64,000 nt of DNA from Streptomyces sp. PCS3-D2 (GTDB lineage: Bacteria > Actinomycetota > Actinomycetes > Streptomycetales > Streptomycetaceae): the NCBI RefSeq assembly GCF_000612545.2, contig NZ_CP097800.1, positions 3,759,001-3,823,000 of the forward strand. Direction: 5' to 3'. Position 1 is the first letter of the stretch. The number at the start of each line of letters is the position of its first letter. This document shows positions 54,094-64,000 of this stretch, piece by piece. Under the pieces are notes generated by a model, which was not told where the DNA came from, did no database searches, and worked only from the letters and a program-made list of their open reading frames with translations. Position numbers and translations under genes: made by a program.

Positions 54094-55542
54094 GTGGGAA
54101 GACTGGAGCGACCGCTGGCCCCCGATGCCGGACCGGTCACCGCGTTCGCCCGGGAGTTGCGCAGTCTGCGTGCCGCGGCGGGCAGCCCCGGCTACCGCGA
54201 CATGGCCATGCGGGCCCGGTTCTCCGCGTCGGTGCTCTCCGACGCGGCCGCCGGATACCGGCTCCCCACCCTCCAGGTGGCCCTCGCCTTCGCCGAGGCC
54301 TGCGGCGGTGACCGCGCCACCTGGGAACGCCGGTGGCACGAGGCGGCCCGCCCCGTGCCCGAGGACGGCAACCCCCGCCCCGCGGCCAAGGCCGTACAGC
54401 AGCACCAGGAGAACGAACTGCGCGCCGCCGACGTACGAGCCGTACTGCCCCCGCCGGCCCAGCTGCCGATGGAGCCCCGCGCCCTGGTGGGACGCGTCGA
54501 GCTGATCCAGCAGGCCAGGTCGCTGACCGCGCCCGCGCACGGCGGCCAGCCGGCCGCGGTCCCCCTGCTGATCAGCGGTCAGGTCGGTGCGGGCAAGTCC
54601 GCCTTCGCCCTGCGGCTGGCCCACGAACTGGCGACGGCCCTGCCCGACGGACAGCTCTACGCGAACCTCGACCCCGCCGCGGACGGCCGCAAGGACGCCG
54701 CGGGTATCGCGGGCGGTTTCCTCGAAGCGCTCGGTATCCCGGCCGACCGGATCCCGAACGACCCCGGGCAGAGAATGGGCTTGTACCGGTCTGTGCTCGA
54801 CCGCCGCAGGATCCTCGTGCTGCTCGACAACGTGCAGCACGAACGCCAGGTGCGCGAGCTCCTGACCGCCGCGCCCGAGAGCCGCGTCGTGATCACCAGC
54901 CGCTCCCGGCTGCTCGGCCTCGACGGGGTGTGCCGGCTGCGGATGCCCGTCCTGGACCGCGACGAGTCCATGCACCTGCTCGCCCAGTCGCTGGGCGCGG
55001 ACCGGGTCGGCACCGATCCGCGCTCCTGCCTGCGGCTGGCCGAGGCCTGCGGAGACCTGCCGCTGGCCCTGAACCTGGCCGCGCGGCGGCTCGCGGCCCG
55101 TCCGGAGTGGATGCTCCAGGACGCGGTGTCCGACCTGGTCGGCGAGGGGCCCGGGGAACCGGGCCGGTTCCTGGGCCGGCTGCAGGTGGGCGACGACGCC
55201 CTCGTCACCCGCCTGGACAGCGCCTACCGCCAGCTGACCCCGTGGGCCCGCCTGGTGCTGAGGCAGTTCGCCGGGTCGGACGGACCGCCCTCGGTGGACA
55301 ACGTCGTGTACGAGTCCGCGGACGCGCTCGCCGTCCTGGTGGAGCGCTCCGCGCAGCCGGTCGAGGACCTCCTCGAACGCCTCCTGGACGCGGGCCTGCT
55401 GGACCACTCCGACGTGCCCGGGGAGTACGGGCTCACGCCCATGGCCCGGGCCTTCGCGCTGACCCAGCCGGACCCGACGGACGAGTCCCCGGCCGGGGCG
55501 CCGCGGTCGGCGGCGCAGGTGCCCGCACGGGCGGCGCGGTAG
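54094..55542 (+). CDS. HTH and NB-ARC regulator
   Basis: 482 residues from GTG 54094 (AAAGGAG six bases upstream; GTG 54076 is longer). N-terminal helix-turn-helix (VTAFARELRSLRAAAGSPGYRDMAMRARFSASVLSDAAAGYRLPTLQVALAFAEACGG), then an NB-ARC-type ATPase with Walker A SGQVGAGKSAFALRLAHEL, Walker B LVLLDNVQHE, VVITSRSRLLGLDG and CGDLPLALNLAARRL, and no TPR array. It starts 172 bp from and divergent to the SARP gene, so the pair may share control of the locus. Confidence 0.88.
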   Translation: MGRLERPLAPDAGPVTAFARELRSLRAAAGSPGYRDMAMRARFSASVLSDAAAGYRLPTLQVALAFAEACGGDRATWERRWHEAARPVPEDGNPRPAAKAVQQHQENELRAADVRAVLPPPAQLPMEPRALVGRVELIQQARSLTAPAHGGQPAAVPLLISGQVGAGKSAFALRLAHELATALPDGQLYANLDPAADGRKDAAGIAGGFLEALGIPADRIPNDPGQRMGLYRSVLDRRRILVLLDNVQHERQVRELLTAAPESRVVITSRSRLLGLDGVCRLRMPVLDRDESMHLLAQSLGADRVGTDPRSCLRLAEACGDLPLALNLAARRLAARPEWMLQDAVSDLVGEGPGEPGRFLGRLQVGDDALVTRLDSAYRQLTPWARLVLRQFAGSDGPPSVDNVVYESADALAVLVERSAQPVEDLLERLLDAGLLDHSDVPGEYGLTPMARAFALTQPDPTDESPAGAPRSAAQVPARAAR

Positions 55543-55614: not shown

Positions 55615-56673
55615 TCAGCCGGCGGCTCCCGCCGGGGGCGGCGTCCGCGCCCCGTGGGTGATCGTCACGTACAGGTACTCGTCGAGGATCTTGGCCAGGG
55701 ACACGTGCGGCCTGCCCAGATCGGCGCAGACGGAAGCCTCGGGCAACCCTCCGGCCTCGGCGAGCACTGCGCGCGCCCAGGCACCGCCGGTCCGCAGATG
55801 GCGGGCGAAGGCGTCGCCGTCCCGGGCGCCGTGGAGTCGCTCCGCGATGGCCGCGTCCCAGGGCATGACCGAGGCGGGGCGCAGCGCGTACAGCGCCTTG
55901 GAGGCGGCGGTCGGGCCGAGGCTGCGGCGGCCGACCGGTACGGCCGCCAGCTCCGCGTAGGCCTTCGCGAGCCGGGAGATCTCGCGGGGGCCGAGCGCCG
56001 CCAGCGGCGCGTCCGGCACCCCCCGGTGGCGCTCCCACCAGGCCGCGAGTCCCGCCCCGAAGGCGTCGGGCTCGCCCTCGCGCGGGTAACGGATGCGGCA
56101 TCCCCAGGAGTTGAGCCAGCGGTGCAGGGCGGTGCGGTGCGCGGCGGCGGAGACGTCGAGGGCGCCGGTCTCCTCGCGCAGTGCCAGCCAGCTGCGGTCC
56201 ACGCCGGCGAATCCGTTGAACACCTCCGCCGCGGCATGCAGCCGGGCCAGCGTGGGCGGTGACGGGACCGGGGCCGGGCCCGCCGGGTCCCCCGCCGCGG
56301 TCCCCGCCGGGGGTCGGTCGAGGTGTTCGCGGGCCACCCTCGCCGGCACCACCATCCGCCAGGCCTCGGTGACCAGTTCCGTCAGCTCCTCGCGGTCCAG
56401 GGCGGCGAGGTGGGCCTGCGCCCAGTGGAAGCGCAGATCCGACTCCCGGGGCAGGAAGAACTTCGCGGGTTCGGCGGCGACGAGCGCCGCCCGCTCCTCC
56501 TTGGGGAAGGCGAAGCCCAGTTCGCTCTCGTCCCGGGAGAGCGCGAGATAGACGATCCTGCCGATCCGGAACTTCACCCGGTCCCGGACGAGATGCTCCT
56601 GGGTGCGCGGCAGGGCGAGCGCCAGCCGACGCACGTCGTCCACCGTGACCGCGGCCCGCTCCGTCGGTGTCAC
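55615..56673 (-). CDS. MmcQ/YjbR-like domain fused to an unknown C-terminal domain
   Basis: 352 residues, GTG start preceded by a G-run. Residues about 9-125 are an MmcQ/YjbR DNA-binding-like domain (VDDVRRLALALPRTQEHLVRDRVKFRIGRIVYLALSRDE). The C-terminal ~200 residues (LARLHAAAEVFNGFAGVDRSWLAL to LAKILDEYLYVTITHG) look like a DUF6308-type domain with SKALYALRPASVMPWD. I do not know its function. Starts 13 bp after the flavin oxidase gene, so it is the last gene of the minus-strand operon. Confidence 0.7.
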   Translation of the reverse strand: MTPTERAAVTVDDVRRLALALPRTQEHLVRDRVKFRIGRIVYLALSRDESELGFAFPKEERAALVAAEPAKFFLPRESDLRFHWAQAHLAALDREELTELVTEAWRMVVPARVAREHLDRPPAGTAAGDPAGPAPVPSPPTLARLHAAAEVFNGFAGVDRSWLALREETGALDVSAAAHRTALHRWLNSWGCRIRYPREGEPDAFGAGLAAWWERHRGVPDAPLAALGPREISRLAKAYAELAAVPVGRRSLGPTAASKALYALRPASVMPWDAAIAERLHGARDGDAFARHLRTGGAWARAVLAEAGGLPEASVCADLGRPHVSLAKILDEYLYVTITHGARTPPPAGAAG

Positions 56674-56686
56674 GCCGGCCCCCCGC

Positions 56687-57829
56687 TCACAGGCCCGCGA
56701 GCTGCGGGGCGTGGACGTCCAGCGGCCCGTCGAGCGCGCCGACACCGATCGGTGCGGGGCTGCGGCCGCCCAGCCGGTCGGCGAGCGACCTTGCGATGAG
56801 CGGCGCGAACTTGAAGGACGTCCCGCCGCAGGCCGCGTACGCGTATCCCGCGCCGCCGAGGGCGACGACCAACGGGCCGCCGGTGGGCGCGAACGCCGAG
56901 TAGTAGGCGTCCTTGGCGGTGGCGACCCAGGCCGGCCCGAAGCCGGGGAGGACGTCCCCGAACTCCTTCTCCAGCTTGCGCTGCCAGTACGGGTCGGTGG
57001 CGTAGTCGGTGATCGCGTCCACCGCCCGGCAGGCGGTGGCCGAGGTGAGCTTGAGGGCCGTGCCCGCCACCGGGGGGATCAGCCAGGCTCCGCCCCTCGT
57101 ACCGAGGGCGGGCACGGCCGGGGTGGCGGCCCAGGCGGCCGCCTGCCGCCGCGGCACCCTGCAATACAGGAGGGACTGCCGGTAGAGCGTGAGCTGTTCG
57201 GACATGCCCGCCGGCAGCAGGTCCCGCGACCAGGGGCCGACCGCCATGAGGACCGCGTCGCCGTGCAGCACCTGCCCGTCCACCAGCCGTACGGTGCCGC
57301 TGTCGGCGTCGACGGCGGTCACGGGCCGGTGTTCGATCAGCTCGATGCCGCGCTGCCACTTCAGCCAGCCGACGCATGCCGCGAGGACCCGTTCGGCCAG
57401 CAGGACGCCCGCCTCGGTCTCCAGCACCCCGCCGAGGCCGCCGTCCAGGTGCAGGTTCGGGTAGCGGTCGGCGAGGCCGGCCGAGGTCAGCTCCGTCGCC
57501 CTCCCCCCGGCCCTGACGATCATGGCTGCCCCGTCCGCGGCCGCCGCCGGCGGCACGACGGTGAGTGCACCGACCTGCTCGTAGAAGCGCGTCACGAGGA
57601 GCTCTTCCAGCTCGATCCACCGCCGGTGTGCCCGCAGGGCGGCGCCGGTGGTCTGCGGGTCCGCGGGATGCAGGGCCCGCAGGATCCGGTGCTGGTCGAA
57701 AGAGGTGGCCCGGCTGTGCGGGATGGGCCCCTGGTCGACGATCGTGACCCGGTGTCCGTCGAGCACGCACTCGACCGCCGTCAGCAGCGCGATCACGCCC
57801 GCGCCCACTACCGTTACCCTCGCCGACAT
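56687..57829 (-). CDS. FAD-dependent amine oxidase (DAO/sarcosine oxidase family)
   Basis: 380 residues, ATG after a strong AAGGAGGAGGG. FAD-binding N-terminus VTVVGAGVIALLTAVECVLDGHRVTIVD (third glycine of GxGxxG is Ala), an amine-oxidase substrate domain, and the C-terminal GGAGYAYAACGGTSFKFAPLIARSLADRLGG of monomeric sarcosine or N-methyltryptophan oxidases. The cysteine that binds FAD covalently in those enzymes is not evident (DAYYSAFAPTGGPLVV), so the flavin may be non-covalent. It should oxidise a secondary amine or amino acid to an imine with hydrogen peroxide release, as a tailoring step. Confidence 0.88.
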   Translation of the reverse strand: MSARVTVVGAGVIALLTAVECVLDGHRVTIVDQGPIPHSRATSFDQHRILRALHPADPQTTGAALRAHRRWIELEELLVTRFYEQVGALTVVPPAAAADGAAMIVRAGGRATELTSAGLADRYPNLHLDGGLGGVLETEAGVLLAERVLAACVGWLKWQRGIELIEHRPVTAVDADSGTVRLVDGQVLHGDAVLMAVGPWSRDLLPAGMSEQLTLYRQSLLYCRVPRRQAAAWAATPAVPALGTRGGAWLIPPVAGTALKLTSATACRAVDAITDYATDPYWQRKLEKEFGDVLPGFGPAWVATAKDAYYSAFAPTGGPLVVALGGAGYAYAACGGTSFKFAPLIARSLADRLGGRSPAPIGVGALDGPLDVHAPQLAGL

Positions 57830-57866
57830 CACCCTCCTCCTTTCTTGGTGTCCGGTTCCCGACGCG

Positions 57867-59129
57867 TCAGCTGTCGAGGACGATGGTGGTCAGCGCCTCG
57901 GCCTTGGCGAGGGACTCCTCGCAGCTCAGGAAGTCGTCGCCGGCGCAGATCAGGTTGGCGTAGCGGCTGAGGTAGCCGTCCGGCGGCAGCAGCAGCTCCG
58001 TGCCGGCGGGCACCATCACGTTGGCCTCCAGCAGCCCCGGCACGTCCGTGACGGCGGGTGCGTCGATCGACCGGACCGTGCCGTTCCGTGGCGGGTAGAG
58101 GAAGCGGATGCCGACCGTGCGGGACAGCGTCGGCTCCCGTTCCGGCAGGGTGCCCGAGGCGATCTCCGCGGCCAGTTCGCCCGGCTCGACGCCGGTGGCC
58201 AGGCTGCCCAGGTAGGGGATCAGGTCGCCGCCGAGGCGGGCGTTCACTTCGATGATCACCGGACCTCGGGTGGTGAGCTTCACCTCCGTGTGTGTGATCC
58301 CGTAGCCGATGCCCAGCTCCCGGTGTGCGGCCCGCAGCACGCGCAGCAGCTCCTGGTCGGCGAGCAGCGGGTCGGTGGCGCTGACGGTGTGCCCGGTCTC
58401 CTCGAAGTAGGGCGCGAGGCCGACTTCTTTGCGGGCGAGGAAGAGCGGGCTCCAGACGCCGTCGAAGACCGTGCCGTCGATGCTGATCTCGGGGCCCATG
58501 ACGCACTCCTCGACCAGCACCCCGCCCTCGTAGTCGCTGTTCCCGCCGCGGCTGGCGGCGTCCGCGACCTCGAAGGCGGCACGGACCCCCTCGGGGCCGT
58601 CGACCTTGATGACGCCGATGCTGGCGCCCATGCCGCGGGGCTTCAGGACGACCGGGTAGCCGAAGGCGTCGGCCGTCGCGAGCGCCTCGTCCGCTCCCGT
58701 CACGTAGGCGAAGTGCGGCTGGGGCAGCCCGGCGGCGGTCAGCAGCTGCCGGGTGTTGTGCTTGTTGCGGCAGTTGTCCGCCCCCTGGAAGGTCAGTCCG
58801 GGCAGGCCGAGCCGCTCGGCTATGAGGGCCGTGGTCACGACGAGCGTCTCGTCGTAGCTGAACACGCCGACCACGCGGTGCTCGGCGGCGACCGCTTCGG
58901 CAGCCTTGATCAGGCCTTCCGTGTCGGGCACGAGGCGTTGCGGGTCGAGCAGCTCCACGGTGGTGGAGCCCAGTACGTGGTCGCGCTGCCAGGTCGGTTC
59001 GGCCGCGTCCAGGATCCAGATCGGGCGCCGGCGGGCCGCGCCCGCGAGCAGGTACTCGCGGTAGGCGCGCTGTCCGCTGCCGACCAGGATCACCACGCCG
59101 TCATCGGTCGTGTGGGCGTCATCGGTCAT
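57867..59129 (-). CDS. ATP-grasp carboxylate-amine ligase B
   Basis: 420 residues. Complete ATP-grasp fold: N-terminal pre-ATP domain (VVILVGSGQRAYREYLLAGAARRRPIWILD), ATP lysine strand YPVVLKPRGMGASIGV, adenine-binding VLVEECVMGPEISIDGTVFDG, and the magnesium site HTEVKLTTRGPVIIEVNARLGGDLIPYLGSLATG with Glu and Asn in place. Related to L-amino acid ligases that make dipeptides by acyl-phosphate formation. ATG with GAGGTG upstream; a GTG (59138) overlapping the YbaK stop is possible. Confidence 0.92.
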   Translation of the reverse strand: MTDDAHTTDDGVVILVGSGQRAYREYLLAGAARRRPIWILDAAEPTWQRDHVLGSTTVELLDPQRLVPDTEGLIKAAEAVAAEHRVVGVFSYDETLVVTTALIAERLGLPGLTFQGADNCRNKHNTRQLLTAAGLPQPHFAYVTGADEALATADAFGYPVVLKPRGMGASIGVIKVDGPEGVRAAFEVADAASRGGNSDYEGGVLVEECVMGPEISIDGTVFDGVWSPLFLARKEVGLAPYFEETGHTVSATDPLLADQELLRVLRAAHRELGIGYGITHTEVKLTTRGPVIIEVNARLGGDLIPYLGSLATGVEPGELAAEIASGTLPEREPTLSRTVGIRFLYPPRNGTVRSIDAPAVTDVPGLLEANVMVPAGTELLLPPDGYLSRYANLICAGDDFLSCEESLAKAEALTTIVLDS

Positions 59130-59134
59130 GTCCG

Positions 59135-59638
59135 TCACCTCGCGGAGTTGGTCAGGACCCGGTCCCCGGCCGTCGCGATCGCGGCCAGCACGGGCTTGGC
59201 GATGGCGAGGTAGTCGGAGGTGGACAGGGCCACGGAGCGGTCCAGGCGGGCCGCGTTGAAGTAGATCTCTTCGGTGAGTGCCAGGCCCTCGTCCACGACG
59301 AGGTGGAGGTCGGGGTGGAAACTGAGCGGCATCACGGTGCCGCAGACGCTGCCGGCCAGCCGTTCGGCGATCTCCGGGGTGGCGAAGGCGGTGCGGCCTC
59401 CGCCGAACAGCGCGGCGACCGCGGCCAGGTCGACCTGGCGGTCTCCGGGGACCACCGCGAGCACGTACTTGCCGACCCGCTTGGTGATGCTGACGCGGAC
59501 GATGATGCACTTGGCGGCCTGCTCCAGCGGGTGCCCGCGCAGCACGCTGGCGAGGTCCGTGCGGCCCTCGGCCGGGTGGTCGATCAGGCGGTAGCGGGCC
59601 TGGTGCAGGTCGAGCAGGTCGAGCAGCGTCCGGTACAT
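59135..59638 (-). CDS. YbaK/ProX-type aminoacyl-tRNA deacylase
   Basis: 167 residues. YbaK/EbsC-family fold with the conserved lysine at 43 (AAKCIIVRVSITKRVGKYVLAVVPGDRQVDL) and the GxVxP loop (CGTVMPLSF, residues 99-107), plus VDEGLALTEEIYFNAARLDRSVALST. These proteins hydrolyse wrongly charged tRNAs such as Cys- or Ala-tRNA(Pro). Here it is in a natural-product operon between ligase and SBP genes with base-sharing overlap, so the likely role is self-protection against charging of a product analogue; direct use of aminoacyl-tRNA is an alternative. Confidence 0.87.
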   Translation of the reverse strand: MYRTLLDLLDLHQARYRLIDHPAEGRTDLASVLRGHPLEQAAKCIIVRVSITKRVGKYVLAVVPGDRQVDLAAVAALFGGGRTAFATPEIAERLAGSVCGTVMPLSFHPDLHLVVDEGLALTEEIYFNAARLDRSVALSTSDYLAIAKPVLAAIATAGDRVLTNSAR

Positions 59639-61434
59639 CAGTGGGCCTCCGCCTCTTCCGCGGCCGTGCCGGCGTAGTGCCAGTCCTCGGGGTTGATCAG
59701 TCCGAAGGGGTTGATCGGGGCGACGCCCTGGAGGCCCTTGGCGACCTCCAGCAGGCGGAAGGGGAAGTTGGGCATCCAGATCACCGGAACCTGCTGTGCG
59801 ATGTAGTCCTGGTAGGCGTACAGGTCCTCCAGGTCGTCGCTGACCACGGTCCGGGCGATCAGCTCGTCCGCCTTCGGGTCGCTGTAGCTGCCGAAGTTGA
59901 CGGAGGATCCGCTGGAGTAGAGCGCCTCACCGGTGGGGTAGAAGCCCGGGCCGTAGCCCCAGCCGCCGTTCCAGTCGCTGAACTCCCACAGGCACGGGCT
60001 GTCGGGACCGGGGGTGCAGGTGGTGTCCTCCAGGACCAGGACGCTCGCCTCGACCTCGGTCAGCACGATCTCGATGCCGGCCCGTGCGGCGTCGGCGGCG
60101 AACTTTCGCATGACCTCGGTGAGGGTCTCGTGCCCCGCGGCGTAGCGCATCGAGAACCGCAGCGGAGTGCCGGCCGGGATGCCTTCGCCCGCCTCACCGG
60201 GGCCGGTGCCCTCACGGACGCAGACGCCCGGCGTGGAGCTGATGTCCCACCCGTTCCCGGTCAGGAAGGTCCGGGCCGCCTCGACGTCGAAGGGGTACGG
60301 GTCGTCGTGCGCGGCGGGGGAGAGCAGTGGGCTGTCGGGCAGCGCCGGGATGGGCCCGGTGGTCGGGTAGCCGTAGCCCTTGTAGACGTCGCGGATGGCG
60401 CCCCGGGAGTCGAGGCAGGACTGCAGTGCCTGGCGGAAGTAGAGCTGCTTGAAGATTTTTCCGGCAACGGTGGGGTTGTTGAAGTTGATCGGGAAGTAAT
60501 GGATTTTGTAGGTGAGCTGGGGGACGAGGTCGTAGTGCTCGCCGAGCGGGTTCGGCCCGCCGGCCAGCAGGTCCTCGGCCGGCTCCGTGACCTCGTCGAA
60601 GGGCAGGAATCCGACCTGTACGCCGTCGACCGCCTCGGGTCCGCGGCGCAGCATCTCGTACTGCTCGGTGTCCGAGCCGGTGGGAATCAGCCGGAACTCG
60701 TCCAGGTAGGGCTTGTTGGGGCCGCTGTAGCTCTCGTTGGGCGTCAGGACCGCTTCGCCCGACACCCCGTCGATGGTGTAACGCGTCAGCTTCCAGGGGC
60801 CGTTGACCACACCCCAGACGGGGCTGGTGTCCCAGCTCTTGCGCTCGTCGTTGCAGGCCCTCAGGTAGGCGTAGACCGCCGAGGCCTGGGACGGGTCGTG
60901 GGTGGCGTCGGCCGGCCGGTCGTCGCCGGTGCGGTCCCACGCCCTGGGCAGCGGGGTGATGGTGCTGAACTGGTTCATCAGGACCCAGTTGTGCGAGTAG
61001 GCGCGGTCGAAGGTGAAGCTCACCTTGTCCTCGGCGACCTTCTCGTAGCCGGTCAGGTTGTCCGGGAAGAAGCCCGGCGTGTATCCGCCGAAGCTGTCCT
61101 TCTCAGCCTCCAGCAGGTGCATCCACAGCATCACGTTGTCGGCGTTGACGGTCTCGCCGTTCGACCACCGGTAGGGCTTGACGGTGATGGTCGCCGTGCG
61201 GCCGTCCTCGCTCCACACCGGGGGCTCGGCGAGGCTGCGCTCGTAGTCGACCGTCGGCTGGCCGCCGGAGCCGTACCAGTAGAGCGGGCGGTACATCAGT
61301 GTCTGGAACTCGTGCAGGTTGGCCACCCCGTAGTACTCGCCGGGGGTGAAGGGGAAGATGAAGACCGGGCTGAATCCGCTGGTGCAGGCCCAGGTCACGC
61401 TCCCCCCGCGGAGCGGGGTCGTGGGCGGGGTCAT
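59638..61434 (-). CDS. SBP_5-family peptide-binding protein without export signal
   Basis: 598 residues. Family 5 (DppA/OppA-like) fold: LMYRPLYWYGSGGQPTVDY, WSEDGRTATITVKPYRWSNGETVNADNV, YKIHYFPINFNNPTVAGKIFKQLYFRQALQSCLD. The ATG overlaps the previous stop (ATGA) and no longer ORF exists. The N-terminus MTPPTTPLRGGSVTWACTSG has no hydrophobic stretch and no lipobox, so it should stay in the cytoplasm. No permease or ATPase genes are adjacent. It may bind or process the pathway peptide inside the cell, or be an enzyme built on the SBP fold. Confidence 0.88.
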   Translation of the reverse strand: MTPPTTPLRGGSVTWACTSGFSPVFIFPFTPGEYYGVANLHEFQTLMYRPLYWYGSGGQPTVDYERSLAEPPVWSEDGRTATITVKPYRWSNGETVNADNVMLWMHLLEAEKDSFGGYTPGFFPDNLTGYEKVAEDKVSFTFDRAYSHNWVLMNQFSTITPLPRAWDRTGDDRPADATHDPSQASAVYAYLRACNDERKSWDTSPVWGVVNGPWKLTRYTIDGVSGEAVLTPNESYSGPNKPYLDEFRLIPTGSDTEQYEMLRRGPEAVDGVQVGFLPFDEVTEPAEDLLAGGPNPLGEHYDLVPQLTYKIHYFPINFNNPTVAGKIFKQLYFRQALQSCLDSRGAIRDVYKGYGYPTTGPIPALPDSPLLSPAAHDDPYPFDVEAARTFLTGNGWDISSTPGVCVREGTGPGEAGEGIPAGTPLRFSMRYAAGHETLTEVMRKFAADAARAGIEIVLTEVEASVLVLEDTTCTPGPDSPCLWEFSDWNGGWGYGPGFYPTGEALYSSGSSVNFGSYSDPKADELIARTVVSDDLEDLYAYQDYIAQQVPVIWMPNFPFRLLEVAKGLQGVAPINPFGLINPEDWHYAGTAAEEAEAH

Positions 61435-61766
61435 GTCCGTACTTCCTCCAATGCGGATTCACCGCTGTCCGAGTGGGCCCCGTAGCGCTCCCAGCGCTCG
61501 TTGAGCCGGATCCGTCCGTCGTCGAGGAACTCGGGGGTGCTCCAGCACCTGCCCGCGATCACTTCACCGCTCGCGAGGACCATCGTGTAGGCGAATTCGA
61601 GGTTGCCGTCGGGCTCCACGCGCCCGTTGAGCGAACCGCGGCGGACGGGCCCCCCGTCGAAGTCGGCCCAGAGCAGGTCCCCTTCCTGGCGGTAGTGGCC
61701 GACGGGGGCGTCCTCGTCCTTCGGGTATCCGGTGTTGCGGAAACTCCTGCCGTCGTAGTCGATCAC
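61431..61766 (-). CDS. Small beta-rich protein of the family often annotated N-acetylglutamate synthase
   Basis: 111 residues from the GTG that overlaps the hydrolase stop (GTGA); the longer frame to 61793 is unlikely. Pattern VIDYDGRSFRNTGYPKDE, LLWADFDGGPVRRGSLNGRV, GRCWSTPEFLDDGRIRLNERWERY is typical of a small lipocalin-like family found next to many metabolic genes. It has none of the GNAT motifs, so the usual database name is doubtful. Both ends overlap neighbours by four bases, so it belongs to the operon. Confidence 0.75.
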   Translation of the reverse strand: MIDYDGRSFRNTGYPKDEDAPVGHYRQEGDLLWADFDGGPVRRGSLNGRVEPDGNLEFAYTMVLASGEVIAGRCWSTPEFLDDGRIRLNERWERYGAHSDSGESALEEVRT

Positions 61767-62587
61767 GTGGCCCGTATCTCCTGACTGCAGCACTTGACCG
61801 CGCCGCCGGCCTTCAGCAGTTCCGACATGTCCACGCCGTGGGGCTCGAATCCGCGGGCCCTCAGCTCATCGATCAGGCCGGTCGCGGTCTCCGTCAGGAC
61901 CACGTTCAGTCCGTCGCTCACCGCGTTGAGGCCGAAGGCCTCGGCATCCTCCCGGGTCGCGAGGATCGCGTCCGGGTACAGCTCCCGCAGCACGGCCCGG
62001 CTCTCGTCGGAGAAGGCGGCGGGGTAGTACATCACCAGGTCGTCGTCGAGGACGCACAGCGCGGTGTCCAGGTGGTAGAAGCGGGGGTCGGTCAGGGCCA
62101 GGCCGACCACGGGCAGGCCGAAGAACGCGCGGAGCTCCTCGAACGCGCCGGGGTCGCTGCGGAATCCCGCGCCGGCCAGGATCCGCCGGCCGGCCGGGGC
62201 GAAGTCGCCCTCGCCCTCGTTGACGCGGTCCGGGACCTTGATGTCGGTGTAGCCGTGTTCCTCGAACCAGGCCCGGTAGGCGTCGGCCTCGGCCGCCCGT
62301 TCCTGGTGGCGGAACTTCGCGATCAGGACCTTCCCGTCGACCACGGTGGCGCCGTTGGCCGAGAACACCATGTCCGGCAGGCCGGGCACCGGGTCGATGT
62401 ACGAGACCTCGTGGCCCAGGCCGAGGAACAGGTCCCGGACCCGCTCCCACTGGGCCAGAGCCAGAGCCGCGTCCATCGGCTTGTCCGGGTTCATCCACGG
62501 GTTGATCGCGTAGCTCACCTCGAAGTGGGTGGGCCGGCACATCAGGTAGTGGCGCCTGGTGGCGGTGCGCCGGACGGTCTCAGCCAT
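61763..62587 (-). CDS. Dimethylargininase-like (DDAH) amidinohydrolase
   Basis: 274 residues. Guanidino-group-modifying fold with the DDAH-type residues FSANGATVVDG, NEGEGDF (Glu124-Asp128), YHLDTALCVL (His172) and a C-terminal KCCSQEIR with Cys266/Cys267 as candidate nucleophile. Such enzymes hydrolyse N-methylarginine to citrulline, or arginine-like substrates to the ureido form. In this operon it probably makes or trims a citrulline-like building block. Overlaps the ATP-grasp gene upstream by 8 bp. Confidence 0.9.
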   Translation of the reverse strand: MAETVRRTATRRHYLMCRPTHFEVSYAINPWMNPDKPMDAALALAQWERVRDLFLGLGHEVSYIDPVPGLPDMVFSANGATVVDGKVLIAKFRHQERAAEADAYRAWFEEHGYTDIKVPDRVNEGEGDFAPAGRRILAGAGFRSDPGAFEELRAFFGLPVVGLALTDPRFYHLDTALCVLDDDLVMYYPAAFSDESRAVLRELYPDAILATREDAEAFGLNAVSDGLNVVLTETATGLIDELRARGFEPHGVDMSELLKAGGAVKCCSQEIRAT

Positions 62588-63833
62588 GCTCGGGCCTCAT
62601 CTCGGTACGGATGCGGCCGGCCGCGACGTGTGCGGCGGTCAGCGCCTCGGTCAAGGAGGTGCCGGTGGCCCCGATGAAGCCGAGGATGTTGTTGCCCGCG
62701 GGCGGCCGCTTGATGACGCTGCCCGGGGTGGCGGTGATCTTGAGGAAGAACAGCGCCGGGTCCTCGGCCACCTCGCTCGGCACGTCGATCGACTCGACCG
62801 TGCCGGCGCCGCTGATCAGGCACATCGCGGCGGTGTGCACCTCGGTCGGCGCGTAGTGGGAGACGTCGGGCCGGATGCCGCGGGCCACGTCCGACACGCA
62901 TTGGATGGGGTCGTGGCCGGCGCTGATGCGGGCCATGTGGTCGAGCCCGCCGCCTCCGGGGCGGATCGCGATCTCCAGGATGAAGGGCCTGCCCTGGTGG
63001 AAGCGCACCTCGGCGTGGAGCACCGACCGGCGCAGTCCCTGCGCGTGGGCCGCGTCCCGGACCACCTCGTGGACGGCGGCGACCTGCTCCGGGGTCAGCG
63101 AACTCGGCGCGTGGTGGACGTCGTCGTCGAAGGTTCCGCTCTCGACGGTGATCCGGTCCACGATGGAGCCGAGGTACACCTCCTCGTCCCAGGCCAGCGC
63201 CTCGATGAGGTGCTCGTGCCCGTCGAGGTAGCCCTCGACGATGATCCCGTGCGGACCGAGGTCCAGGCCGTCGGCCTCCATCAGCGCCCAGGTCATGGTC
63301 TCGATGCCCGAGGTGGCGTCCGCGAAGCGGGCGCGCATCTCCTCGGGGTCGTCGACCTTGAAGACGAAGTTGCTGGCGGCGCCGAGGGTCGGCTTGAGGA
63401 TCAGCGGGTAGCCGAGCTCCTCGCCGGCGGCCAGGGCCGCCTCGACGTCGGGGGCGTAGCGGAACCCGGGGTGCGCCGCGCTGCCGCGCTCGTGCGCCTG
63501 GCGCATGAGCAGCTTGTTGCGGCTGGTGCGGGCGGCCTCGAAGCCGATGCTCGGCAGTCCGAGCGCCTCGGCGACGACCGCCACCGTGACGACCCCGGAC
63601 TCGGAGAAGGTCAGGACCCCCTCGAAGTCCTCCTCCGCGTGCCAGGCCTTGGCGGCCGTGACGATGTCCTCGATGTGCTTGGATCCGGCGATCCGGTAGC
63701 GGTCCGCGTCCCAGAAGTCCTCGGTTCCGATGCCGTTCAGTACGAAGACCCGGGCGCCGCGTTCCTCGATCTGCTGGTAGCGGGAGACGTAGTAGGTGGC
63801 GTTCTGGCTGGCCTCGATGGCGAGCAGCTTCAT
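62580..63833 (-). CDS. ATP-grasp carboxylate-amine ligase A
   Basis: 417 residues, ATG with GAGGAGG eight bases upstream. N-terminal domain MKLLAIEASQNATYYVSRYQ, ATP strand YPLILKPTLGAASNFVFKVD, IVEGYLDGHEHLIEALAWDEEVYLG and HAEVRFHQGRPFILEIAIRPGGGGLDHMA. The Asn of the usual E-x-N magnesium pair is Ala here (EIA), which occurs in some ligase subfamilies. It is distinct from ligase B (57867), so two different amide bonds may be made. Confidence 0.9.
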   Translation of the reverse strand: MKLLAIEASQNATYYVSRYQQIEERGARVFVLNGIGTEDFWDADRYRIAGSKHIEDIVTAAKAWHAEEDFEGVLTFSESGVVTVAVVAEALGLPSIGFEAARTSRNKLLMRQAHERGSAAHPGFRYAPDVEAALAAGEELGYPLILKPTLGAASNFVFKVDDPEEMRARFADATSGIETMTWALMEADGLDLGPHGIIVEGYLDGHEHLIEALAWDEEVYLGSIVDRITVESGTFDDDVHHAPSSLTPEQVAAVHEVVRDAAHAQGLRRSVLHAEVRFHQGRPFILEIAIRPGGGGLDHMARISAGHDPIQCVSDVARGIRPDVSHYAPTEVHTAAMCLISGAGTVESIDVPSEVAEDPALFFLKITATPGSVIKRPPAGNNILGFIGATGTSLTEALTAAHVAAGRIRTEMRPEHG

Positions 63834-63847
63834 GTCCGGTCCTCCTC

Positions 63848-64000
63848 TCAGACCCTGGCCGGGACGGACTCGCGGGCCTCGGCCCCGGCCGTGACGGGCT
63901 CGGCGGCCTCGGCGGCCGCGACGGGCTCGGACTCTTCGGCGGCCTCGGCGGCCTTGGCGGCGGCCTCGGCGGCGGCGACCTCACGGTCGTGCTTGCGCAG
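63848..64000 (-). CDS. C-terminal end of an unknown protein, truncated by the window edge
   Basis: Only the last 50 residues are in the window (LRKHDREVAAAEAAAKAAEA to ESVPARV). They form an alanine/glutamate-rich charged tail, such as the cytoplasmic end of a transporter or a linker; nothing catalytic can be seen. The stop codon is 14 bp before ligase A, and its ribosome site overlaps the tail, so it is the next gene of the same operon. Confidence 0.6.
   Translation of the reverse strand: MRKHDREVAAAEAAAKAAEAAEESEPVAAAEAAEPVTAGAEARESVPARV

Follow-up and report, generated by a model that had tools for sequence, protein, structure and literature searches.

A probable hydrazine-peptide operon in Streptomyces sp. 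PCS3-D2 encoding two ATP-grasp ligases and a solute-binding protein without a signal peptide

What could be made by a run of genes that encodes two ATP-grasp ligases, a dimethylargininase-like hydrolase, a trans-editing deacylase and an importer-type solute-binding protein (SBP) without a signal peptide? The question arises at the end of a 64,000-nucleotide stretch of Streptomyces sp. PCS3-D2 DNA (hereafter the window), in which a sequence-only reading had recognized nine minus-strand genes and had proposed that a guanidino- or ureido-containing amino acid is made, joined by amide bonds and oxidized. Coordinates are those of the window; adding 3759000 gives the contig coordinate (C1 of genome G000), on which the window spans 3759001-3823000. 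The window holds only part of the operon, which continues for about 4.5 kb upstream, to 68547 (C1 3827547), where we found the three genes of a hydrazine synthetase system. Because this trio directly adjoins the other genes with its cupin and synthetase residues intact, and because the oxidase of the operon fits hydrazine cleavage, we consider it likely that the twelve genes make a small non-ribosomal peptide with an N-N (hydrazine) amino acid as a constituent or precursor. The predicted gene products are as follows.

g52, 55615..56673, minus strand: YjbR domain plus a C-terminal part (Pfam PF04237, E 7e-10)
g53, 56687..57829, minus strand: flavin adenine dinucleotide (FAD)-dependent oxidase resembling D-amino-acid oxidase (DAO) and glycine oxidase (Pfam DAO, 8e-28); start taken at 57829, as the alternative start at 57808 truncates the Rossmann motif
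g54, 57867..59129, minus strand: L-amino-acid ligase B, ATP-grasp (PF13535 and PF18603, matched with a longer version of this frame)
g55, 59135..59638, minus strand: YbaK-type trans-editing deacylase, tRNA_edit (PF04073, 2e-19)
g56, 59638..61434, minus strand: SBP_5 protein without a signal peptide (PF00496, 3e-31)
g57, 61431..61766, minus strand: 111-amino-acid (aa) protein of no known family
g58, 61763..62587, minus strand: guanidine hydrolase of the dimethylarginine dimethylaminohydrolase (DDAH)/arginine-dihydrolase type (NF045659; Pfam DDAH_eukar/ADI)
g59, 62580..63833, minus strand: L-amino-acid ligase A, ATP-grasp (PF13535 and PF18603)
g60, 63848..65179, cut by the window end at 64000, minus strand: major facilitator superfamily (MFS) transporter (PF07690, 1e-35), proposed as an exporter
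g61, 65197-66816, beyond the window, minus strand: protein resembling methionyl-tRNA synthetase (MetRS-like; PF09334, 1e-68)
g62, 66813-67181, beyond the window, minus strand: cupin (PF07883, 3e-14)
g63, 67234-68547, beyond the window, minus strand: N-hydroxylase (PF13434, 3e-85, 286.7 bits)

The nine genes had been described as separated by at most 37 bp with several overlaps, and this is what we found from g52 through g60 (13, 37, 5, -1, -4, -4, -8 and 14 bp), the ninth being the truncated MFS gene. Upstream of ligase A the gaps are 14, 17, -4 and 52 bp (g60, g61, g62 and g63 in turn), and from strand and spacing we infer a single 12-gene operon running from g63 to g52 (68547 to 55615). That neither a non-ribosomal peptide synthetase (NRPS) nor a tRNA-dependent synthase is seen in the window holds as far as NRPS independence is concerned, but a class I aminoacyl-tRNA-synthetase-like protein, g61, does belong to the pathway and had been missed because the window cuts the cluster.

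Trios of an N-hydroxylase, a cupin and a MetRS-like protein form hydrazines: once the MetRS-like part has adenylated an amino acid, an N-hydroxy amine attacks the activated residue, giving an ester from which the zinc cupin forms the N-N bond by rearrangement (PMC8664883, PMC11705231). The putative metal residues described for PyrN (H50, H52, E56 and H90; PMC8664883) map at a constant offset of two onto H48, H50, E54 and H88 of our cupins, and all four are present in 44/44 sequences. Likewise, the class I signatures HxGH and KxSxS occur in 43/43 MetRS-like proteins; both sets comprise our own locus plus each orthologous locus with a call for the gene in question. A distinct MetRS match elsewhere in the genome (C1 1261513) is presumably the housekeeping enzyme. 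The product of g63, which adjoins the synthetase genes, belongs to the lysine/ornithine-type flavin N-hydroxylases by its 286.7-bit match to PF13434, and its closest solved structure is an ornithine hydroxylase. The nearest solved relatives of the cupin g62 are 4rd7 (6e-46) and plu4264 (1e-32), followed at 1e-9 by RHS1 (5uqp), which has been assayed as N-N forming (PMC8664883). Elsewhere in the genus, a MetRS-like or N-hydroxylase match was found beside 14 of 15 weaker cupin matches (3.3 kb each). Two Protein Data Bank (PDB) entries named methionine-tRNA ligase, 9l8v and 9vq4, fit the MetRS-like profile more closely than the remaining MetRS entries listed, and may be hydrazine-synthetase-type proteins.

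The association of these genes with the SBP was followed across genomes. An SBP search of 296 genomes of the genus (E 1e-80) gave a match in 46; identity was at least 58% in nine of these, our own among them, and at most 37% in the others. Among 396 genomes across the phylum, an orthologue-level match was found in our own genome only (1176 bits, with four others at 483 bits or less), and the family thus appears to be patchy in distribution. A pattern-based scan of one genome per species (84,980 species) returned at least 85 SBP relatives, from which 79 distinct loci were kept: 48 with SBPs at 49-94% identity, taken as orthologues, and 31 with distant SBPs at 30-40%. The N-hydroxylase, the cupin and the MetRS-like protein were each detected by tblastn at 43/48 orthologous loci and at none of the 31 distant ones; the same five loci miss the whole trio (L060, L062, L069, L072 and L086), and all are short contigs or contig ends. 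By the same method the DDAH was found at 35/48 and g57 at 47/48 orthologous loci, and neither at any distant one. A ligase match occurred at one locus with a distant SBP, and the lengths of the neighboring genes suggest that many of the 31 are importer operons. Host genera seen among the 48 orthologous loci number 13: Streptomyces, Amycolatopsis, Saccharothrix, Kribbella, Actinomadura, Planomonospora, Actinosynnema, Hamadaea, Winogradskya, Dactylosporangium, Labedaea, Kitasatospora and Actinocrispum.

One could argue that the DDAH and the two ligases make a guanidino or ureido peptide and that the hydrazine genes serve a separate pathway, since the DDAH and the ligases retain their family signatures and the DDAH adjoins ligase A at many loci. 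However, the trio heads the same gene run with gaps of at most 52 bp and, short contigs aside, is found at every orthologous locus (43), and we regard such a separation as highly improbable. What remains of the original proposal is a set of NRPS-independent amide ligases, to which the hydrazine chemistry has to be added; a guanidino or ureido residue may also take part, and ligase A would then be the most probable enzyme to use it.

The pathways of s56-p1 (Spb38/39/40), triacsin (Tri26/27/28), actinopyridazinone (Apy9-11) and albofungin (Afn8/9/18) likewise have an N-hydroxylase, a cupin and a MetRS-like protein, and several of the known hydrazine pathways also share a DAO-type FAD oxidase with this cluster (PMC11705231). 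The cupin and MetRS genes are separate here, as in albofungin and in the stand-alone pairs tabulated in that review from a 2024 mining study, among them Kit1-Kit2 of Kitasatospora gansuensis (PMC11705231); the mining study may contain a relative of our cluster. Unlike those of the named pathways, with which they were compared by description only, the hydrazine genes here are accompanied by L-amino-acid ligases, a DDAH-type hydrolase and g57, and in the orthologous set also by a cytoplasmic SBP. In s56-p1 synthesis, the DAO homologue Spb39 cleaves the first hydrazine (PMC11705231). By analogy we propose that g53 is a hydrazine-cleaving enzyme, the two proteins belonging to the same broad family as judged by the review's description of Spb39 and not by sequence. 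A flavin amine oxidase had been predicted at this position, and a DAO-type oxidase is indeed present; because the part of the operon beyond the window encodes a hydrazine synthetase system, a hydrazine is more probably its substrate than a generic amine.

Could the product then simply be a hydrazine-derived compound that is already known, such as s56-p1, triacsin, azaserine or pyridazomycin? The N-hydroxylase/cupin/MetRS logic is the same, and an ATP-grasp protein also occurs in the azaserine cluster, namely AzsJ, considered uninvolved by the authors of that study (PMC10445470). The pyridazomycin N-hydroxylase is listed as unknown (PMC7347517). On the other hand, s56-p1 comes from an amino-group-carrier-protein cluster (PMC13266690), and the carrier-protein, N-acetyltransferase and AMP-dependent synthetase genes common to the azaserine and triacsin clusters (PMC10445470) were not seen here. 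No amino-group carrier protein gene was recognized among the genes read, although no dedicated search was made. Orthology with the s56-p1, triacsin or azaserine cluster was rejected, as the gene content differs, and we consider it quite unlikely that one of these four compounds is the product.

The presence of two distinct ATP-grasp ligases, as first read, was borne out. Both g54 and g59 exceed the Pfam cut-offs of ATP-grasp_4 and LAL_C2, the same architecture as the L-amino-acid ligases BacD and BL00235, and by family they would be L-amino-acid ligases that are predicted to form amide bonds. The nearest PDB entry to ligase A is BL00235 (3vot, E 3e-26), followed by BacD (2e-13), a low similarity in both cases. 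Distances in a tree of 91 ligases separate A-like, B-like and a third group of ligases, the last found in relatives, and place A and B far apart. The dimethylargininase-like assignment of g58 was likewise upheld: it scores 427 bits against NF045659 (cut-off 300), falls below the arginine dihydrolase cut-off of NF052232 (194 of 450 bits), and has ArgZ (Sll1336) as its nearest PDB entry (E 7e-48). Its relatives keep His172, Cys266 and N78 in 40/40 cases; N78 corresponds to ArgZ Asn71, the residue that reportedly decides between ornithine and citrulline. With ArgZ and the Mtb-type dimethylargininase, g58 shares the sequence family and the His/Cys residues, but unlike them it sits in a biosynthetic operon.

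Two roles may be considered for this hydrolase. It could be an arginine dihydrolase merely feeding ornithine to the N-hydroxylase, a supply suggested by its closest solved relative, ArgZ, and by the likeness of g63, among solved structures, to ornithine hydroxylase. Nine Amycolatopsis loci, however, keep the N-hydroxylase with no DDAH match in the stretch examined, and the genome has four further DDAH-type genes; we therefore find ornithine supply rather unlikely. The DDAH is present at 34/37 loci with ligase A and at 0/9 without it, a hand count (Fisher p 2e-7) that rests on the nine Amycolatopsis loci and is not independent of ancestry. The count is thus suggestive only; as the N-hydroxylase persists where the DDAH is absent, we tentatively assign the DDAH to ligase A and not to hydrazine formation. 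At L049 and L084, which are two copies of one genome, ligase A and the DDAH appear fused (741 aa); the joining stretch looks out of frame, and we treated this as a frameshift.

The orthologous loci differ around a common core. The subtype described here has YbaK, ligase B and the DAO-type oxidase. A second has the DAO, a TauD-family protein related to arginine/enduracididine hydroxylases (below their cut-offs) and a protein without a family match that was taken for another ATP-grasp enzyme. A third carries a ketosynthase III, an FkbH-like protein and an acyl carrier protein, the first two at 11/48 loci; the FkbH-like and carrier names are our own reading, with no Pfam match for FkbH. These genes lie directly upstream of the N-hydroxylase in L059, L061, L065, L067, L068, L075 and others. 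In the fourth subtype, a methylaspartate mutase and an asparagine-synthetase-A-like protein occur at 15/48 loci, suggesting that 3-methylaspartate may be a building block in the mutase-bearing clusters; this pair was seen in Amycolatopsis (L070, L073, L074, L076, L077, L079, L081, L082 and L126) and in L087-L089, L091 and L116.

The small protein g57 regularly accompanies hydrazine clusters. For 17 aligned members of its family, the best Pfam match had an E of 0.11, which is not meaningful, and a comparison with the PDB gave none. In the 296 genomes of the genus, its profile found 22 places at 114 bits or more, the remainder scoring at most 72.5. A cupin match lies within 7 kb of 16 of these 22 places, four further ones adjoin cupin and MetRS-like genes on inspection, and the remaining two (G028 and G130) are on split contigs with the cupin on another contig. 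From this co-location, g57 would therefore mark hydrazine clusters with or without ligases. Minimal clusters (L174-L178) contain the cupin, a short MetRS-like protein (about 430-460 aa), an oxidase reading as DAO, an FAD-linked oxidase or N-hydroxylase, and g57; the genes called there include neither a ligase nor an SBP match. Second loci in two genomes of the same genus (L172 and L173) have the N-hydroxylase, the cupin (42-43%), g57 and two ligases, along with proteins that we name B12-binding radical-SAM-like and acyl-CoA-dehydrogenase-like, and no MetRS-like gene among those called in 20 kb.

We then have to ask why such an operon would contain an SBP. Membership of family 5 is clear for g56 (PF00496, 109.5 bits against a cut-off of 32.4), and it is 30-40% identical to the 31 distant actinobacterial relatives. 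In contrast to SBPs of ABC importers, it has no signal peptide, no permease or ATPase gene was found by Pfam among the operon's 12 genes, and the cysteine pair 405/415 is broken. That it lacks a signal peptide had been read correctly: a stop lies upstream and the open frame of 606 aa leaves no room beyond the 598-aa match for a signal peptide or lipobox. A hydrophobic N-terminus was found in 0/48 orthologues (best 14-residue mean at most 0.96 upstream of the match, the upstream frame being shorter than 14 residues in four of them) and in 30/31 paralogues (1.66-2.98), the match of the 31st beginning at residue 109 so that its N-terminus cannot be judged. The idea that g56 is an ordinary importer component whose true start had been overlooked was rejected, as both the stop ahead of the frame and the 48 orthologues argue against it. 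In a tree of 78 sequences (a quick search, unrooted, with some long branches), a single branch (SH-aLRT 100) separates the 48 cytoplasmic SBPs, our own and 47 others, from all the rest, and 40 positions are at least 95% conserved within this clade and at most 20% outside it. Cys405 is present in 30/30 secreted and 48/48 cytoplasmic members, whereas its inferred disulfide partner in the secreted members, Cys415, is present in 29/30 and 0/48, respectively. A further cysteine, Cys17, was gained in 46/48 cytoplasmic SBPs, and this pattern as a whole would suit a reducing compartment. The missing hydrophobic N-termini, the single clade and the lost cysteine from a probable disulfide together indicate that an importer protein was apparently recruited to the cytoplasm for biosynthesis. 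The SBP of Hamadaea tsunoensis (L054) is 77% identical to g56, closer than most Streptomyces subtypes, a probable transfer between families.

Two functions come to mind for this protein. We tentatively propose, as something short of probable, that a periplasmic-type SBP was acquired in one event and, having shed both its signal peptide and a disulfide cysteine, came to serve as a dedicated cytoplasmic chaperone for a reactive hydrazine intermediate or peptide in NRPS-independent assembly; it would be the binding-protein counterpart of a carrier protein. We found no description of a cytoplasmic SBP in a biosynthetic cluster in the open-licence literature searched. It could instead be a self-protection protein that sequesters the finished toxic peptide and has no role in synthesis, which we hold to be conceivable if somewhat doubtful. 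The SBP_5 family binds peptides, the gene is co-oriented with a ligase and the exporter, and six genomes of the same genus (L166-L171, of which L171 is a 7-kb contig) have a cupin at 53% or more, MetRS-like and ligase genes without an SBP match at 1e-80, as expected of a resistance part. Against sequestration of the end product alone, SBP distances over 42 loci track those of the MetRS-like protein (r 0.86) and the cupin (r 0.83), with r 0.79-0.86 for the core proteins and a permutation p of 0.001, although these correlations depend partly on shared organism ancestry. The SBP also persists whichever ligases and tailoring genes a subtype has, so that its ligand is more probably the shared hydrazine moiety than an end product that varies.

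Gene content, conserved residues, co-occurrence and the absence of a signal peptide from the SBP are established by sequence; the pathway itself would run as follows. By analogy with the hydrazine synthetase family, the N-hydroxylase g63 would hydroxylate the side-chain amine of ornithine or lysine, the MetRS-like g61 would adenylate a second amino acid and esterify it to the N-OH, the zinc cupin g62 would rearrange the ester to the N-N bond, and the oxidase g53 would cleave one side of the hydrazine. Ligases A and B could then add further amino acids, with g58 making or modifying the arginine-derived partner of ligase A. The YbaK protein g55, whose identification as a deacylase agrees with the earlier reading, may clear mis-acylated by-products or mis-charged tRNA, and the MFS protein g60 may export the product. 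In the cytoplasm, g56 could bind the peptide or the hydrazine intermediate or product, for sequestration, hand-over or self-protection.

Several observations weigh against this interpretation. The four columns examined in the nucleotide-binding motifs of the N-hydroxylase are somewhat variable. A DAO-type oxidase was called at only 27/48 orthologous loci, and a YbaK match was found at 8/48. Six related clusters, as noted above, do without the SBP, and a second cysteine pair, 473/481, is retained in 28/48 cytoplasmic SBPs (21 and 22 of 30 secreted ones). In the open-licence literature we found no orthologous cluster with a known product, in agreement with the earlier statement that no characterized pathway has this gene set, nor any product, substrate or activity described for any member; a subscription paper could describe such a cluster.

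Two further genes flank the operon.

g51, 54094..55542, plus strand: regulator with helix-turn-helix and NB-ARC domains by Pfam, convergent with the operon
g64, 68884-69750, beyond the window, plus strand: second DDAH-type gene (PF19420, 3e-5)

A g51 homologue is present at 13/48 orthologous loci, making it a possible cluster regulator. At the other end, the divergent g64 is separated from g63 by 336 bp, and a scan of 401 bp around this region found no promoter or terminator. The genome has five DDAH-type genes (C1 1016675, 1151032, 3820766, 3827938 and 5421901); the four outside the operon, one of them divergent beside it, share 62-67% identity with the operon copy. Between g64 and the DDAH proteins of other subtypes, identity is 58-76%. 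As for g52, a tblastn match occurs at 25/48 orthologous loci, and its C-terminal part is a stand-alone protein in other clusters. What looks like an integrative conjugative element begins about 6 kb from the operon (L010 11500-20000, L011 1-2230); it contains genes that we read as transposase, GntR-type regulator and FtsK-like, followed by small genes as far as a tRNA-Ile (L011 2151-2227).

In these clusters, for which no described product was found, hydrazine synthetases and ATP-grasp peptide ligases come together, and g57 is a small partner of no known family that marks hydrazine clusters. In the SBP they offer a clean evolutionary case in which an import-binding protein was apparently turned into a cytoplasmic biosynthetic part. 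They point to a class of peptides with N-N bonds, whose members might be looked for in strains from culture collections, Streptomyces avidinii among them.

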